Source: Gammaproteobacteria bacterium (GTDB lineage Bacteria; Pseudomonadota; Gammaproteobacteria; Pseudomonadales; Pseudohongiellaceae). From it: a DNA stretch of 42,147 nucleotides. The DNA lies in contig JAQWTK010000096.1 in NCBI GenBank assembly GCA_029242705.1, forward strand, positions 1 through 42,147, written 5' to 3'. This document shows, piece after piece, positions 41-4,512 of the stretch; the stretch's first letter is position 1; every line of letters begins with the position of its first letter. The translations under genes were made by a program, and so were the position numbers. The notes beneath the pieces were generated by a model. The model was not told where the DNA came from. It did not search any database and saw only the letters and a list, made by a program, of their open reading frames with translations.

Positions 41-2287
41 CTAAGGCTGCCATGCGTAGCTGAACTTAGCGAAAAAAGTTCGATTTGTGTATTCGATAGA
101 ATTATATATATCGTCCTGAAATCCAGTATCAGAGTATCCAATAAAAAAACGTGTGCCAGCGTTTACCTTGTAGCTATAGAGTACCTGCGTACCTAAATCA
201 CGGCTTATTTTGTCGATAGCTCGAACATAATTATCCACATTTCTTTCACGGTTTGCGTATTGGATGGTTAGCCGAATAAAGCTACGTGCATCGAATTGGT
301 AAGTTGCTCTTAAATCTGTAAGGTTAGCTTTAAAAAGGGGTCTGCCCTCAGATTCGAATTCTTGGAACTGATGGCTGAGATTAATTTGGAAATGTCGCCC
401 TAGTCGATAGTCTATCCGTGGTCCCCAGCGTTTGGAATAACCCAATCTAGTGTTAGCAAAATCAACGACATCTTCGTATCGAATAAGAGAGCTAATATTT
501 AAATTTGGTCTAGGTGCAAACCCAATATTAATCATATTGAATTGCTCGTCAAAATATTGGCCATTCCAATAGGTTTCGCTGCCGCCGAAAAGCCCGTTTA
601 AATATGACTGCATAGGACCATTCATATTTAAGAAAAATTCAGTTTCCTCTTCTAACTGCAAGCCAGATTGATCTTCGGTACGATCATAATCGGCTGCTAT
701 GCGGATTCGGCTAAAAAAACCTTCGCCACCCCAGCGCCAAGTGTGACCCAAGGTTGCAACTGCGTGTTTGAAATCAACTCTGTTTATAAAGCCAAGATCC
801 GCCCGGAAATCGTCCCCCCAATCGTAATAACCTAATCGCCAGTCCCATCGGCGATCGTTATGCTGGTATTCAACTACATGACTACTATCGGTTAAGCTCG
901 CATTCTGATTATATTTGCTCTGAACCATTGCCGGATAATTCGAAGTTGAATGCATACTTTGGACCGAAATAGTGTCTTGATCAGTTGGCCTTATTGACGC
1001 ATCCAGGCTGAGAACAGTGTTATTATAGTCACCTCCTCTCCTGTCGGTTATCAGTACCCCAACGGTAGAATTTTCGAAAATGTCTCTACGGTAACGACCG
1101 ATTGCTATTTTGCTCTTCATATCTTTAATTGAAGCTACACGAGAACTAAGACTACTTGGAATTATAAAATTTGTAGTTTCGTCATTTGCAGCAACAATTC
1201 CATAGGTGTTATTTCCAGTTTTCCCAGTAATTTTTAGGCCATATTCTGGAGATGCTATGTTTCGCGTGTGAACTAAGTTTTCATATGTATCAAAGTAATC
1301 CGCGCCATCTAGAAAGAAAGTTCGGCGTTCGGGGAAAAATAAACTGAAGGTATTGTTTATATCGAGTTGGGTACTATCTGCTTCCACTTGGGAGAAATCA
1401 GGATTAACTGTTGCGTTAACATATATGTCTTGCGAAATCCCCCAGCGTAGGTCAAGACTTCCTTCCGGGTCAAAATTTTCTCGCTTCCAATCTCTGCCGA
1501 TTGCTAGATCTCGGTTCTCAATCGAAGAAGCAGTAAAGGTAGGGATAATTTCCAGATTGCGACTTTTTTCAAGATCTTCAAAACCTTCTAGCTTGCTTAT
1601 TTGACATAGATAGCACGAGATATCTCTATTAATTTCCTGGTTATGTATTTCGGTGCGTCGATCGCGCGGGTAGTGTCTATACAAGTCCATCCCCCAAGTT
1701 TGTATAGAATCATTTTCTGGAAAGCGCAATTGCTTTAGCGGAATAGCGAGTTCAACCGTATAGCCTGTTTCTGTAATACGACCAACACTGTCCCATATCG
1801 CATTCCAAGATTCATCCGTTCTTTGGTTTATATCATCAATTACCGAGTCCATTTGCACGCCGAGGGGATTTACATAAAATCCAAAAGCCCGGCGCTCATC
1901 ATTGAAGGTGTCGAGAATAATCCCCATATAATCCCCGTCCCAGCCGTTATCCCTATCTTGATAGAAACCGCGTATTTGGATTGGGTCAGGATCTTTTGCA
2001 ATGAAGGCTACGTAAATTACCTCCCCATCTTCCATAAGTAGTGCGTCGGCCGAGACGTCAGCGGTAACATTATCACGAGGGTCAACCTCAATATTTACGG
2101 GTATACGTACAGCCGATTCCCACTCCGAAGTTTCGATTATACCGTCTATGATTGGCCTTTCTGAGATGCGTGGGATTTCGACCTTAATACTAGTCTGCCC
2201 AATTACTTTATGCGCAGTAACTAGCAAAAATATCGCGCCAAAAAATAACTTTATTAGTGATTGGGATGAGGACATTCCAGCGGGCAA
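41..2287 (-). CDS. DUF5916 family outer-membrane protein with CBM9-like N-terminal domain
   Basis: A hydrophobic signal peptide covers about residues 10-30 (LIKLFFGAIFLLVTA). A CBM9-like domain follows (about 40-215, with PIIDGIIETSEW near its start and DGDYMGIILDTF in the middle). The remainder, to residue 748, is alternating polar and aromatic strands typical of an outer-membrane beta-barrel, ending FFAKFSYAWQP. This layout is that of DUF5916 proteins, whose biochemical role is not established; binding or uptake of a carbohydrate or another polymer is only an inference from the CBM9-like fold. The longest reading begins at TTG (2285-2287) with GGAG nine bases upstream; the ATG at 2273-2275 is the alternative and has no clear ribosome site. 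It stands alone, downstream of the redoxin gene in the same direction but separated from it by a likely terminator. Confidence 0.8.
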   Translation of the reverse strand: MPAGMSSSQSLIKLFFGAIFLLVTAHKVIGQTSIKVEIPRISERPIIDGIIETSEWESAVRIPVNIEVDPRDNVTADVSADALLMEDGEVIYVAFIAKDPDPIQIRGFYQDRDNGWDGDYMGIILDTFNDERRAFGFYVNPLGVQMDSVIDDINQRTDESWNAIWDSVGRITETGYTVELAIPLKQLRFPENDSIQTWGMDLYRHYPRDRRTEIHNQEINRDISCYLCQISKLEGFEDLEKSRNLEIIPTFTASSIENRDLAIGRDWKRENFDPEGSLDLRWGISQDIYVNATVNPDFSQVEADSTQLDINNTFSLFFPERRTFFLDGADYFDTYENLVHTRNIASPEYGLKITGKTGNNTYGIVAANDETTNFIIPSSLSSRVASIKDMKSKIAIGRYRRDIFENSTVGVLITDRRGGDYNNTVLSLDASIRPTDQDTISVQSMHSTSNYPAMVQSKYNQNASLTDSSHVVEYQHNDRRWDWRLGYYDWGDDFRADLGFINRVDFKHAVATLGHTWRWGGEGFFSRIRIAADYDRTEDQSGLQLEEETEFFLNMNGPMQSYLNGLFGGSETYWNGQYFDEQFNMINIGFAPRPNLNISSLIRYEDVVDFANTRLGYSKRWGPRIDYRLGRHFQINLSHQFQEFESEGRPLFKANLTDLRATYQFDARSFIRLTIQYANRERNVDNYVRAIDKISRDLGTQVLYSYKVNAGTRFFIGYSDTGFQDDIYNSIEYTNRTFFAKFSYAWQP

Positions 2288-2409
2288 GTCGTTTTACTCC
2301 GTGATAAATGTTTGGCCGAATAAGATTTTAACCGATGAGTAATACAGGAAATTTTATAGACATTGATAGAATAATGTTTGGCAATTTGTAACTAATTAGA
2401 ATTGACCAG

Positions 2410-2428
2410 AAAATGCCTAGGCATTTTT
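2410..2428 (-). terminator. Probable intrinsic terminator of the redoxin gene
   Basis: An 18-bp perfect palindrome (AAAATGCC, then TAGGCATTTT) begins inside the stop codon of the upstream minus-strand gene. Its 3' arm ends in TTTT when read on the minus strand. Placement and shape fit a short intrinsic terminator separating this gene from the DUF5916 gene. The T-run is short, so efficiency is uncertain. Confidence 0.45.
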
Positions 2429-3014
2429 ACAGGTTAGAGCCTGCTTGAAGCACACTATCTAAGGTCGGCCTCGCTCGAAAACCCTCTTCGGCAAATTTTG
2501 CGCGAATTATCCCATCAGCACTAATAAGAAAAATGCCAGGATGGGGCACGCCGTAGGCTCTTGAGTCGGGTTCATATTGTTCATTAAGGATGCCGAGGGC
2601 GTTAACATGCCTAATGTTCAGGTCATTGAGAAGTGTAAAATTAATATTTTGATCTTCTTCCACCGTCTTCAGCATTTCAACTGGATCATATGTCATCGCG
2701 GCGATCTTTATCCCTATGGCTTCAAATTGCTCACTAATTTCTACTAGCTGCACGAGCTGATTTTTACAAAATGGTCACCAATCAAAAGATCGACTTAACA
2801 TAAATAATAAACCCTGCTCTCCAGTTAAATTGTTAAACGTGCGTAACGCGCCATTTTGGTCGTGAGCCGAAATATCTATAATGGGAGCACCCACAGGGAA
2901 ATCTGGCGCCCAATTATATTCTTGTGCTATCCCAAACTGAATCGAAGTAAACAAACTCAAGCCTAAGAGAGGCGTGTTTAAAAAAAATTTCAAGTTGACT
3001 AATTTTCGAATCAT
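2427..3014 (-). CDS. Exported redoxin (AhpC/TSA-like), probable selenoprotein with in-frame TGA at the UxxC site
   Basis: Two open stretches (to 2775 and from 2774) are in the same frame and separated only by TGA at 2775-2777. Read through, the protein has MLSRSFDW, TGA, then PFCKNQLVQL. The TGA sits exactly where redoxins of this type carry the first Cys of their CPFC/CPYC motif, and the second Cys is intact. The downstream part (YGVPHPGIFLISADG, then FAEEGFRARPT) is the normal thioredoxin-fold C-terminus, so the frame is under coding constraint on both sides. Sec replacing this Cys is known in peroxiredoxin-like selenoproteins from marine bacteria. An N-terminal signal peptide (MIRKLVNLKFFLNTPLLGLS, ending GIAQ) suggests a periplasmic thiol or peroxide reductase. 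I chose the ATG at 3012-3014 because it starts this signal peptide; an ATG at 3057-3059 is also in frame. It lies just behind lepB in the same direction. A nonsense mutation or read error is the alternative. Confidence 0.75.
2729..2757 (-). promoter_or_regulatory. Candidate bacterial SECIS hairpin downstream of the TGA
   Basis: Read on the minus strand, GCUC (18-21 nt after UGA) pairs with GAGC (43-46 nt). Inside it, CUAGU pairs with AUUAG around an AGAA loop that starts 33 nt after UGA and carries G at its second position. Bacterial SECIS elements lie inside the coding region at about this distance, with a G early in the apical loop. A competing smaller hairpin (AGCU, CGUGC loop, AGCU) starts 17 nt after UGA. 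No folding energy was computed. Confidence 0.45.
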
Positions 3015-3086
3015 TATTTTATACACGAATAAGCTGTCACAATAAGTAGGAATTTTCATTAATCTTGTTTAAAAATTTATTGAGTA

Positions 3087-3782
3087 CTAATCCAATCCTG
3101 TAAGAAATCTTTCTGTTCGTGGCAAATAATAATTCTCTCCATCTAACGAAAAAACGACGGAAGAAGAGCGGCCGATAATTTCTTCTCTGGGTACAAAGCT
3201 ATAAATCCGACTATCAGCACTATTGTCGCGATTATCGCCGAGCACAAAATATTTATCGTCAGGAACAATATTTGGCCCGTAGCTTCGACTGCTACGATTT
3301 ACAAAACGTTGAGATAGTCTGGCCTGGTGCGTTTTATTCGGCAAATGTTCTTCTACTATAGTTGAATTATTTTCGCGCAATAAAACATCGTAATCTACAG
3401 GAACGTCGTTGATAACAAGAGCATTGTTTTGCATGTATATTGTATCTCCGGGAATGCCAATGATGCGTTTTATTAAGCGTTTCTTTGCCATTTTTGAGTC
3501 AAGTATCACAATATCCCCCCGCTTTGGATCCGCAAGTTTAGTTAGGGATATTTCGGTGAAAGGTATTTTTACGTCATAGGCTAGCTTATTGACCCACACT
3601 TTATCTCCGTCTAACAATGTTGGGAGCATTGAAGCGCCTGATATAGAACTGAGATCTGCAATTGCACTTTTGAAAAATACTATACAAAAGAGGATAGCGA
3701 AAAATTGGTGATTTTCTTTCCAAAAAGCAGAAATATAATTCAGTGTCCGTTGCATATAGTTTTGGCGAGTTATTTCTTTCAT
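3087..3782 (-). CDS. lepB: Signal peptidase I
   Basis: This inner-membrane serine protease removes signal peptides from exported pre-proteins. Numbering from the ATG at 3782, the catalytic Ser is about residue 51 in SGASMLPT. The general-base Lys is about residue 105 in LIKRIIGIPGD. The C-terminal signature FVLGDNRDNSADSR is present. A single membrane span (about 25-45, FFAILFCIVFFKSAI) precedes the catalytic domain. Size fits the short LepB type. An in-frame GTG at 3807-3809 would add nine residues; neither start has a strong ribosome site. lepA and rnc, frequent partners, are not adjacent; the probable selenoprotein redoxin follows about 70 nt downstream and may share its transcript. Confidence 0.93.
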   Translation of the reverse strand: MKEITRQNYMQRTLNYISAFWKENHQFFAILFCIVFFKSAIADLSSISGASMLPTLLDGDKVWVNKLAYDVKIPFTEISLTKLADPKRGDIVILDSKMAKKRLIKRIIGIPGDTIYMQNNALVINDVPVDYDVLLRENNSTIVEEHLPNKTHQARLSQRFVNRSSRSYGPNIVPDDKYFVLGDNRDNSADSRIYSFVPREEIIGRSSSVVFSLDGENYYLPRTERFLTGLD

Positions 3783-3841
3783 GTGCGGATATTCTCTACT
3801 AGAGGCCACTAATTTTTTGCATACCTAAATCCAATTTGAAA

Positions 3842-3873
3842 AGTCTCGTTTATGCTTAAGCATAAACGAGACT
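3842..3873. repeat. 32-bp perfect palindrome
   Basis: AGTCTCGTTTATGC, TTAA, GCATAAACGAGACT: a perfect 14-bp inverted repeat around a self-complementary TTAA. It lies about 60-90 bp upstream of lepB. There is no T-run on the + side and only a short TTT on the minus side, so it is not a textbook terminator. It could be a protein-binding palindrome, a hairpin in the lepB leader, or part of a structured RNA. Confidence 0.8.
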
Positions 3874-3884
3874 CCGTCACATAT

Positions 3885-4041
3885 GGGAGCTAAGGACAGT
3901 TAATAAGCTAACTAGTCCTCCCCAGTTAAATAGTCAGTATACTAACTAATATAACTGGAGGCTCCCTTAATAGATTGACTATCGATGGGATCACCTCCTT
4001 TGAATACCAGGGTAGTAACGGATATTAGACGGATCCCCCTG
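3885..4041. ncRNA. Structured intergenic region, candidate RNA element of unknown type
   Basis: GGGAGC (3885-3890) pairs with GCTCCC (3961-3966) and encloses two hairpins. The first is AGGACAGTTA with TAACT and GTCCT (3893-3919). The second is CCAGTTA with TAACTGG (3922-3958) and an inner TAGT/ACTA stem. Together they make a potential three-way junction. Next come GGATCACCTCCTTT (3988-4001), identical to the 16S rRNA 3' tail, and GGGATC/GATCCC (3987-3992 with 4032-4037) or CAGGG/CCCTG (4008-4012 with 4037-4041) pairings. Strand cannot be settled from symmetry. On the minus strand the tail copy would be a perfect 14-nt Shine-Dalgarno sequence with no ATG, GTG or TTG at normal spacing. The 3783-4170 gap holds no convincing protein gene. 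Confidence 0.4.
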
Positions 4042-4170
4042 ATAGAACCACTAATATTACCTGAACTTTTTATATAACATACTCGGTTAAGAGTAAAGTC
4101 ATATGCCGTAGCTCATTTCAATTGCGCTTTGTGAAATACGCGTTCTATATTGAGATTAAGCTGTATTAAC

Positions 4171-4512
4171 TTAAAAGGAAATGAAAAATTGCAAAGAGAA
4201 ATAGAGTACAATTGCTATTGCTGCAATATAAATGCAAAAACGGGTAGGTGATTCTAAGAAAACCTGCCACATCGTCTTTGCCTCATGAAATTCATTGCGA
4301 ATTCTATTCGTTCTTTTATTTTGATAATCATCTATGAGATTGCGCGCTGTCTCAAACTGTTCGTCATACTTAAGCCAAAGAGCCGGAACAGAAATGCTCC
4401 AATTTCCGGCAAAAGTTTCAAAAAATTCTATATTATGTCGGCTCAACAACTGACGAATATCTTCCGCCTCATCTTCTGGAACATGCCGCATTTTGAATAA
4501 TAATCTCGACAT
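4171..4512 (-). CDS. DUF6164 family small membrane protein
   Basis: A 113-residue protein. The N-terminal domain has the conserved features MSRLLFKMRHVPEDEAEDI and the GNWSISVPALWL stretch, about residues 1-68, resembling a small ferredoxin-like sensor or adaptor fold. A single C-terminal membrane helix (about 91-111, FCIYIAAIAIVLYFSLQFF) anchors it with the N-terminal domain presumably cytoplasmic. DUF6164 proteins are widespread in gammaproteobacteria and of unknown function. It is transcribed toward lepB but is separated from it by about 390 bp of structured non-coding DNA, so co-transcription is uncertain. Confidence 0.75.
   Translation of the reverse strand: MSRLLFKMRHVPEDEAEDIRQLLSRHNIEFFETFAGNWSISVPALWLKYDEQFETARNLIDDYQNKRTNRIRNEFHEAKTMWQVFLESPTRFCIYIAAIAIVLYFSLQFFISF

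Follow-up and report, generated by a model that had tools for sequence, protein, structure and literature searches.

An apparently broken redoxin gene of a Pseudohongiellaceae bacterium is very probably an intact gene for an exported enzyme with an active-site selenocysteine

Does a TGA in the middle of a redoxin frame mark a broken gene, or does it encode the catalytic residue of a working enzyme? The question is raised by a draft gammaproteobacterial contig (the window, i.e., the whole analyzed stretch of 42,147 nucleotides), where minus-strand positions 3059-2427 form one frame with a closing TAA at 2427-2429 and a single interrupting TGA at 2775-2777. The TGA sits between SRSFDW and PFCKNQL of an AhpC/TSA-family protein, such that the site reads SRSFDW[U]PFC. 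Gene callers split such genes in two, and bacteria can therefore seem to lack the enzyme. From the comparisons described here, we conclude that the apparently broken gene is very probably an intact one for an exported redox enzyme with an active-site selenocysteine (Sec). Specifically, we are highly confident in reading it as a predicted exported AhpC/TSA redoxin with the active site Sec-Pro-Phe-Cys, where the UGA would be read via SelB and a hairpin.

One frame, one TGA and its homologues

The extent of the gene had been given as 2427..3059 in an earlier note on this DNA, and its start is corrected here. While the frame is open up to an ATG at 3057-3059, the ATG at 3012-3014 is the more likely start, because a Met lies 78 or 79 residues ahead of the U in 20 of the 29 TGA-carrying homologues and because a typical signal peptide starts there. 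As judged by eye, this predicted signal peptide comprises an n-region with Arg/Lys, a hydrophobic core, and a putative cleavage site between GIA and QEY. When Cys is put in for the TGA, Pfam family PF00578 (AhpC-TSA) matches residues 56-187 at 67.8 bits (cut-off 26), a match that therefore spans the TGA.

Features of the locus and related loci of the same genome (window coordinates unless a locus is named)
Feature	Position	Strand	Remarks
Selenoprotein CDS	2427..3014	-	ATG 3012-3014 to TAA 2427-2429; alternative ATG 3057-3059
Likely Sec-type signal peptide	2925..3014	-	judged by eye; similar N-termini and A-Q junction in orthologues
TGA codon, read as selenocysteine; residue 1 of UxxC	2775..2777	-	TGA/Cys column in homologues
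UxxC Cys codon, likely resolving Cys	2766..2768	-	Cys in 29/29 TGA rows and 10/10 rows of a second alignment (A2)
SECIS-like hairpin	2744..2760	-	arms 2755-2760 and 2744-2749, loop CGUGC 2750-2754
lepB, signal peptidase I (PF10502)	3087..3809	-	immediately upstream, conserved neighbour
DUF5916/CBM9-like protein	41..2287	-	downstream, neighbour in most compared loci
Own SelB	L003 1459-3438 (C105)		one in-frame TAA ahead of conserved C-terminal part
Fused paralogue	L089 2348-3508 (C65)	-	386-residue frame, RSADWUPYC

Comparison with homologues confirmed that, as the earlier note had described, a single TGA is followed by a frame that continues to the normal C-terminus. Among 33 distinct close homologue rows, which comprise the matches from a search of 58 genomes and nine loci of named genomes, 29 carried a TGA at exactly the same codon and 4 carried Cys (L056-L059). 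Copies were left out of this count (L051 and L053, copies of L023 and L026), and L047-L050 lie outside it: L047 and L159 are one gene, L048 is a contig-end fragment that was dropped, and L049 and L050 were assigned to the fused paralogue discussed below. Orthologue-level matches (at least 55% identity over most of the protein) that were broken only by the TGA occurred in 26 of the 37 genus genomes within the 58 searched, the own genome included, and were absent in 11 (G030 had a contig-end fragment only, and G024, which is 99% complete, had none). Named relatives include an uncultured Pseudohongiella. At the order level, 28 of 293 genomes matched at an E value of 1e-30 or better, in 29 places. 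Of the 28 loci that were read (all but L147), 16 have TGA at the site and 12 have Cys. The two sets have a few rows in common, L137 and L141 repeat L021 and L045, and the pool after duplicate removal held 43 TGA rows and 16 Cys rows. At both levels, every row read had either TGA or Cys in this column. An in-frame TGA of this kind is far beyond chance.

Stops elsewhere in the gene of close relatives had been named in the earlier note as a sign of decay or of a read error, and we saw none in any orthologue read. The close rows contained no further stop inside the protein (two of them, L030, which starts at a contig end, and L046, which runs into N, are incomplete), and the apparent second TGA in G021 sits just ahead of the likely start codon of L027. 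We furthermore obtained dN/dS values of 0.02-0.18 after the TGA and 0.03-0.25 before it in nine of ten orthologue pairs (for the tenth, window versus L022, dS was saturated and the pair was not used). Selection is about equally strong on either side of the TGA, and the low dN/dS beyond it argues that the gene does not end there.

These data bear on two alternatives. In the first, a redoxin gene would be in decay and the TGA would have arisen by nonsense mutation or by miscalling of a base, a reading that can point to the draft state of the genome and to the in-frame TAA that its SelB gene likewise carries. The same TGA, however, recurs in 29 distinct rows, which stem from many genomes, and at the order level in 16 of the 28 loci read. 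Together with the dN/dS that is as low past the TGA as ahead of it and the covariation of the hairpin behind it (see below), this recurrence renders decay or a base error extremely improbable. In the second, UGA would stand for another residue such as Trp throughout the organism, which the open frame alone would allow. A UGA = Trp code was rejected, as TGA terminates the same gene in L025, L028, and L035; moreover, Cys is the sole exchange partner seen, and a tRNA-Sec with anticodon UCA is present, so that we consider this second alternative practically negligible.

In a quickly built tree with 59 rows, the label Sec or Cys switched twice, with starred branches that force both changes, which suggests at least two Sec/Cys exchanges along this tree. 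The tree program gave a warning about long branches meeting at the midpoint. Loss of Sec to Cys would be the simpler direction, because Sec rows adjoin each of the Cys groups. A search of a plasmid collection yielded distant relatives only (23-33% identity).

The genomic surroundings of the TGA form were largely conserved. lepB adjoins the gene in 12 of 12 genus loci (L090-L101) and in all 4 named TGA loci (L052-L055). Downstream, 11 of the 12 genus loci had a DUF5916 match, with L091 as the exception, and so did 3 of the 4 named loci, L052 being the exception; each set included one short match. In the four Cys loci examined, neither lepB nor DUF5916 was a neighbour within the DNA compared. 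Upstream of lepB, at 3842-3873, the window also contains a perfect 32-base palindrome of two 16-base arms without a spacer.

The hairpin behind the TGA and the machinery to read it

A SECIS-like hairpin starts about 14-15 nt past the TGA and extends over nucleotides 15-31 behind it, which correspond to columns 18-34 of the alignment when counting starts at the TGA. In most rows, it takes the common form (U)CAGCU, loop CGUGC, AGCUG(A). In the window's own copy, the stem consists of four Watson-Crick pairs, then a C.A mismatch and, at the base, a U.G. When this sequence is folded alone, the structure of minimum energy differs from this hairpin. Upon aligning 29 orthologues and 8 fused paralogues, which are related sequences, we found pairing in 99.1% of 216 cells, compared to 7-50% in slid controls. 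Both sides had changed in 16 cells (shuffled mean, 3.3), and the covariation score was 0.263 (0.093 in shuffles); for paired cells, both-side-changed cells, and covariation score alike, 0 of 500 shuffles scored as high. The other two of the five measures lay within the shuffles, with 374 of 500 as high for pairs changed on both sides and 389 of 500 for further pair types.

The pairing extended to distant families, with 255 of 258 cells paired in the 43 TGA rows, and 42 of these 43 rows carried GU at columns 25-26 of the loop. A loop GU is typical of bacterial SECIS elements. Codons +6 to +10 were nearly frozen, with a mean synonymous diversity of 0.05 versus 0.55 at 54 other conserved codons. 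In the 16 Cys rows, the hairpin is degraded and pairs poorly: 64 of 96 cells (66.7%) paired, and the excess over their slid controls (19-41%) comes from codons that are partly shared. The hairpin shows what one expects of a bacterial SECIS, namely compensatory changes and synonymous codons that hardly vary, and the selenoprotein proposed in the earlier note is strengthened by this covarying element 3' of its TGA. Rfam contained no family that matched the window at gathering score, and none of SECIS type that matched 2400-4200 at an E value of 5. We also built a model of the TGA plus hairpin, partly from rows of the window gene and of the fused paralogue themselves, which at an E value of 0.01 found two places in the own genome, namely the window gene and C65:3212-3253; it scored the window gene at 53.5 bits and others at up to 68.8 bits.

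A search for selA, selB, selD, and tRNA-Sec, which the earlier note had proposed as a check, recovered all four in the own genome, but the SelB frame contains an in-frame TAA. SelA and SelD have open frames, SelD scored over cut-off, the tRNA-Sec has the anticodon UCA, and SelB scored 413.7 bits. Over-cut-off matches occurred in 51 of 61 genus genomes for SelB and in 50 of 61 for tRNA-Sec. The own SelD (L018, contig C75) lies within a 766-residue frame, with CAGC in place of Sec in the SelD part and an N-terminal part that by eye resembles NADH dehydrogenase; Ndh-SelD fusions with CxxC are described in a passage of PMC2398784.

The occurrence of SelB followed the form of the gene. Within the order, all 15 genomes that have the TGA form yielded an over-cut-off SelB, compared to 5 of the 12 that have the Cys form; for the named genomes, the figures are 3 of 3 and 1 of 4. 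These counts are not independent of kinship. Six genus genomes (G024, G030, G058, G063, G069, and G081) all had a tRNA-Sec over cut-off, and five of them SelB (not G081), with no match to the TGA-hairpin model in any; they may use Sec in other proteins.

The TAA in the own SelB deserves closer consideration. No other internal stop occurs in the 52 SelB places that score over cut-off in 51 genus genomes, and the privacy of the TAA rests on this set, since the 29 relatives aligned with the own SelB were chosen as long open frames. The TAA falls on a position where these 29 relatives all have one same residue. The last 179 residues past it are 54-72% identical to theirs, the part before it 43-57%. 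The genome from which L052 comes, a named draft with the TGA form, contains a second irregular SelB (L183 269-2249), which lies in two overlapping frames; the frame changes ~27 residues earlier than the own TAA site, and the other frame runs to the end. Other genus members carry intact SelB genes. The SECIS is bound by the C-terminal winged-helix part of SelB, and a genuine TAA would probably leave this strain unable to insert Sec. Draft errors and recent losses would both fit the two irregular SelB genes, as would, least likely, a SelB made in two pieces.

Accepting the loss would mean that the window holds a selenoprotein gene by descent, whose strain recently lost Sec insertion through a truncated SelB. 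This could be argued from the uniqueness of the TAA among the 52 places, from the mismatch at the base of the window's hairpin and its 53.5 bits in the hairpin model, where scores reach 68.8, and from the frame change in the SelB behind L052. We nevertheless judge it unlikely, given that the 179 residues past the TAA are better conserved than the part before, that the tRNA-Sec resembles those of 15 relatives, that SelA and SelD are open, that both TGA genes are retained, and that a base error in a draft assembly would give the same picture. The own tRNA-Sec did score lowest (59.5 bits) among the best over-cut-off hits per genus genome and among the 16 sequences compared, the sole lower score in the genus set being a second hit in G035. 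A decaying tRNA-Sec was rejected: it has the same kinds of non-standard positions as 10 aligned relatives and the same general fold shapes (the fold comparison covered 15 of the 16 sequences; L182 was left out).

A fused paralogue and a proposed function

The second TGA gene of the own genome joins a UxxC redoxin domain to a DsbD_N domain. Its frame matched AhpC-TSA at 97.2 bits and DsbD_N at 29.7 bits (cut-off 25), the latter being scored for this copy alone, and we found the same layout in eight copies from six genomes. The hairpin of these copies is GCAACUCGUGGAGUUGC or GCAGCUCGUGGAGCUGC, where the middle pair varies together, and the window gene and this paralogue both carry SECIS-like hairpins of one design. 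A TGA-interrupted match in a frame of 378-446 residues was present in 16 of 37 genus genomes, and G025 has at least three copies of the paralogue (L102-L104). Among the 293 order genomes, only the own one contained it at an E value of 1e-40, and two other genus members in that set had none at this threshold. For the C-terminal domain of the paralogue, a search of the PDB returned nothing meaningful.

We propose the following course of events. SelB loaded with Sec-tRNA(Sec) would meet the hairpin behind the UGA, upon which the UGA would be read as selenocysteine, and translation would continue to the normal C-terminus, as the comparison of homologues supports. Export and cleavage by signal peptidase would follow. 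The selenolate may then attack a disulfide or a peroxide in the periplasm, the neighbouring Cys would resolve the intermediate to leave a Se-S bond, and a DsbD-type reductase could restore the redoxin. Without selenium or SelB, the UGA would stop translation and yield a truncated protein that lacks the redox site.

The most likely function is that of a periplasmic thiol-disulfide (or peroxide) reductase. The earlier note had likewise suggested a periplasmic Sec-dependent thiol or peroxide reductase. Its Sec reading is supported by the TGA/Cys column, the hairpin, and the machinery, with the SelB frame breaks as a qualification. Between the two reactions, we lean toward thiol-disulfide reduction in view of the UxxC site and the DsbD_N-fused paralogue. 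Sec often raises peroxidase activity, and a protein that acts chiefly as a periplasmic peroxiredoxin would fit the AhpC/TSA family and the PrxQ/BCP-type chains among the PDB relatives. This alternative is possible but, on balance, doubtful: the profile also matches ResA, with the UxxC aligned on the ResA CxxC, the paralogue is fused to a DsbD_N domain, and the motif is UxxC, while Sec-peroxiredoxins have TxxU according to PMC1088965.

For a thiol-disulfide reductase, the paralogue also offers a testable idea for the source of electrons. As it fuses a UxxC domain to DsbD_N, it suggests that DsbD-type domains reduce these redoxins. Tentatively, the genus might even run a selenium-dependent periplasmic reducing pathway, where DsbD-type domains supply Sec-containing AhpC/TSA redoxins with electrons, in trans for the window gene and within one chain for the fused paralogue, though we would not yet favour so broad a scheme. 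The finding as a whole is well supported and ordinary in kind. It gains moderate weight from the Sec/Cys pairs, which provide a natural comparison of the two residues in one exported redoxin (the Cys forms having a degraded hairpin and often no SelB), from the fused paralogue, and from the SelB question in the own genome.

Relation to known redoxin selenoproteins

The protein has relatives in several redoxin families. It shares the AhpC/TSA family with PrxU-type Sec-peroxiredoxins (TxxU), but its motif SFDWUPFC is of the UxxC type and contains no TxxU, and the PrxU model NF040737 was not among its matches at an E value of 0.01. Like members of the ResA/TlpA/DsbE family, it is a predicted exported redoxin with a CxxC-type site, and its profile matches ResA (PDB 3c71). 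The NCBIfam scores lie far under the cut-offs, however (ResA, 18.0 bits of 170; DsbE, 17.8 of 123.15), and Pfam places the protein in AhpC-TSA. Similarity to the SelL-related redox protein (NF040769) is partial, covering residues 60-148 (38.6 bits versus a cut-off of 120).

The closest known kind is that of the "Prx-like" UxxC selenoproteins (PF00578), which are known from marine metagenomes since 2005 and 2008 (the Sargasso Sea and GOS sets). PMC1088965 lists a "Prx-like protein" with UXXC (22 sequences, 21 UXXC and 1 UXC) and keeps it apart from TXXU peroxiredoxins, PMC2398784 lists "Prx-like 1" (pfam00578, UxxC, 225 sequences), and PMC13188914 and PMC9312934 name a Prx-like thiol:disulfide oxidoreductase (PF00578, UxxC). 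The statement of the earlier note that Sec replaces Cys in some peroxiredoxin-like proteins of marine bacteria agrees with the first two of these sets. In the paper library searched, we found no paper that joins Pseudohongiella and selenocysteine and, among the matches listed, no redoxin-DsbD_N selenoprotein.

Matched by family and motif, the window gene joins this known kind: it shares PF00578, a Sec-first UxxC (UPFC in the window protein, with Cys at +3 in 29 of 29 TGA rows), Cys homologues, and an association with marine bacteria. While the Sargasso and GOS sets consist of metagenomic sequences, the window gene comes with a genome context. What it adds to the known kind is the likely signal peptide, the kept place beside lepB, the at least two probable Sec/Cys changes, and a second gene of its genome, the DsbD_N-fused paralogue, whose hairpin shares the SECIS design.
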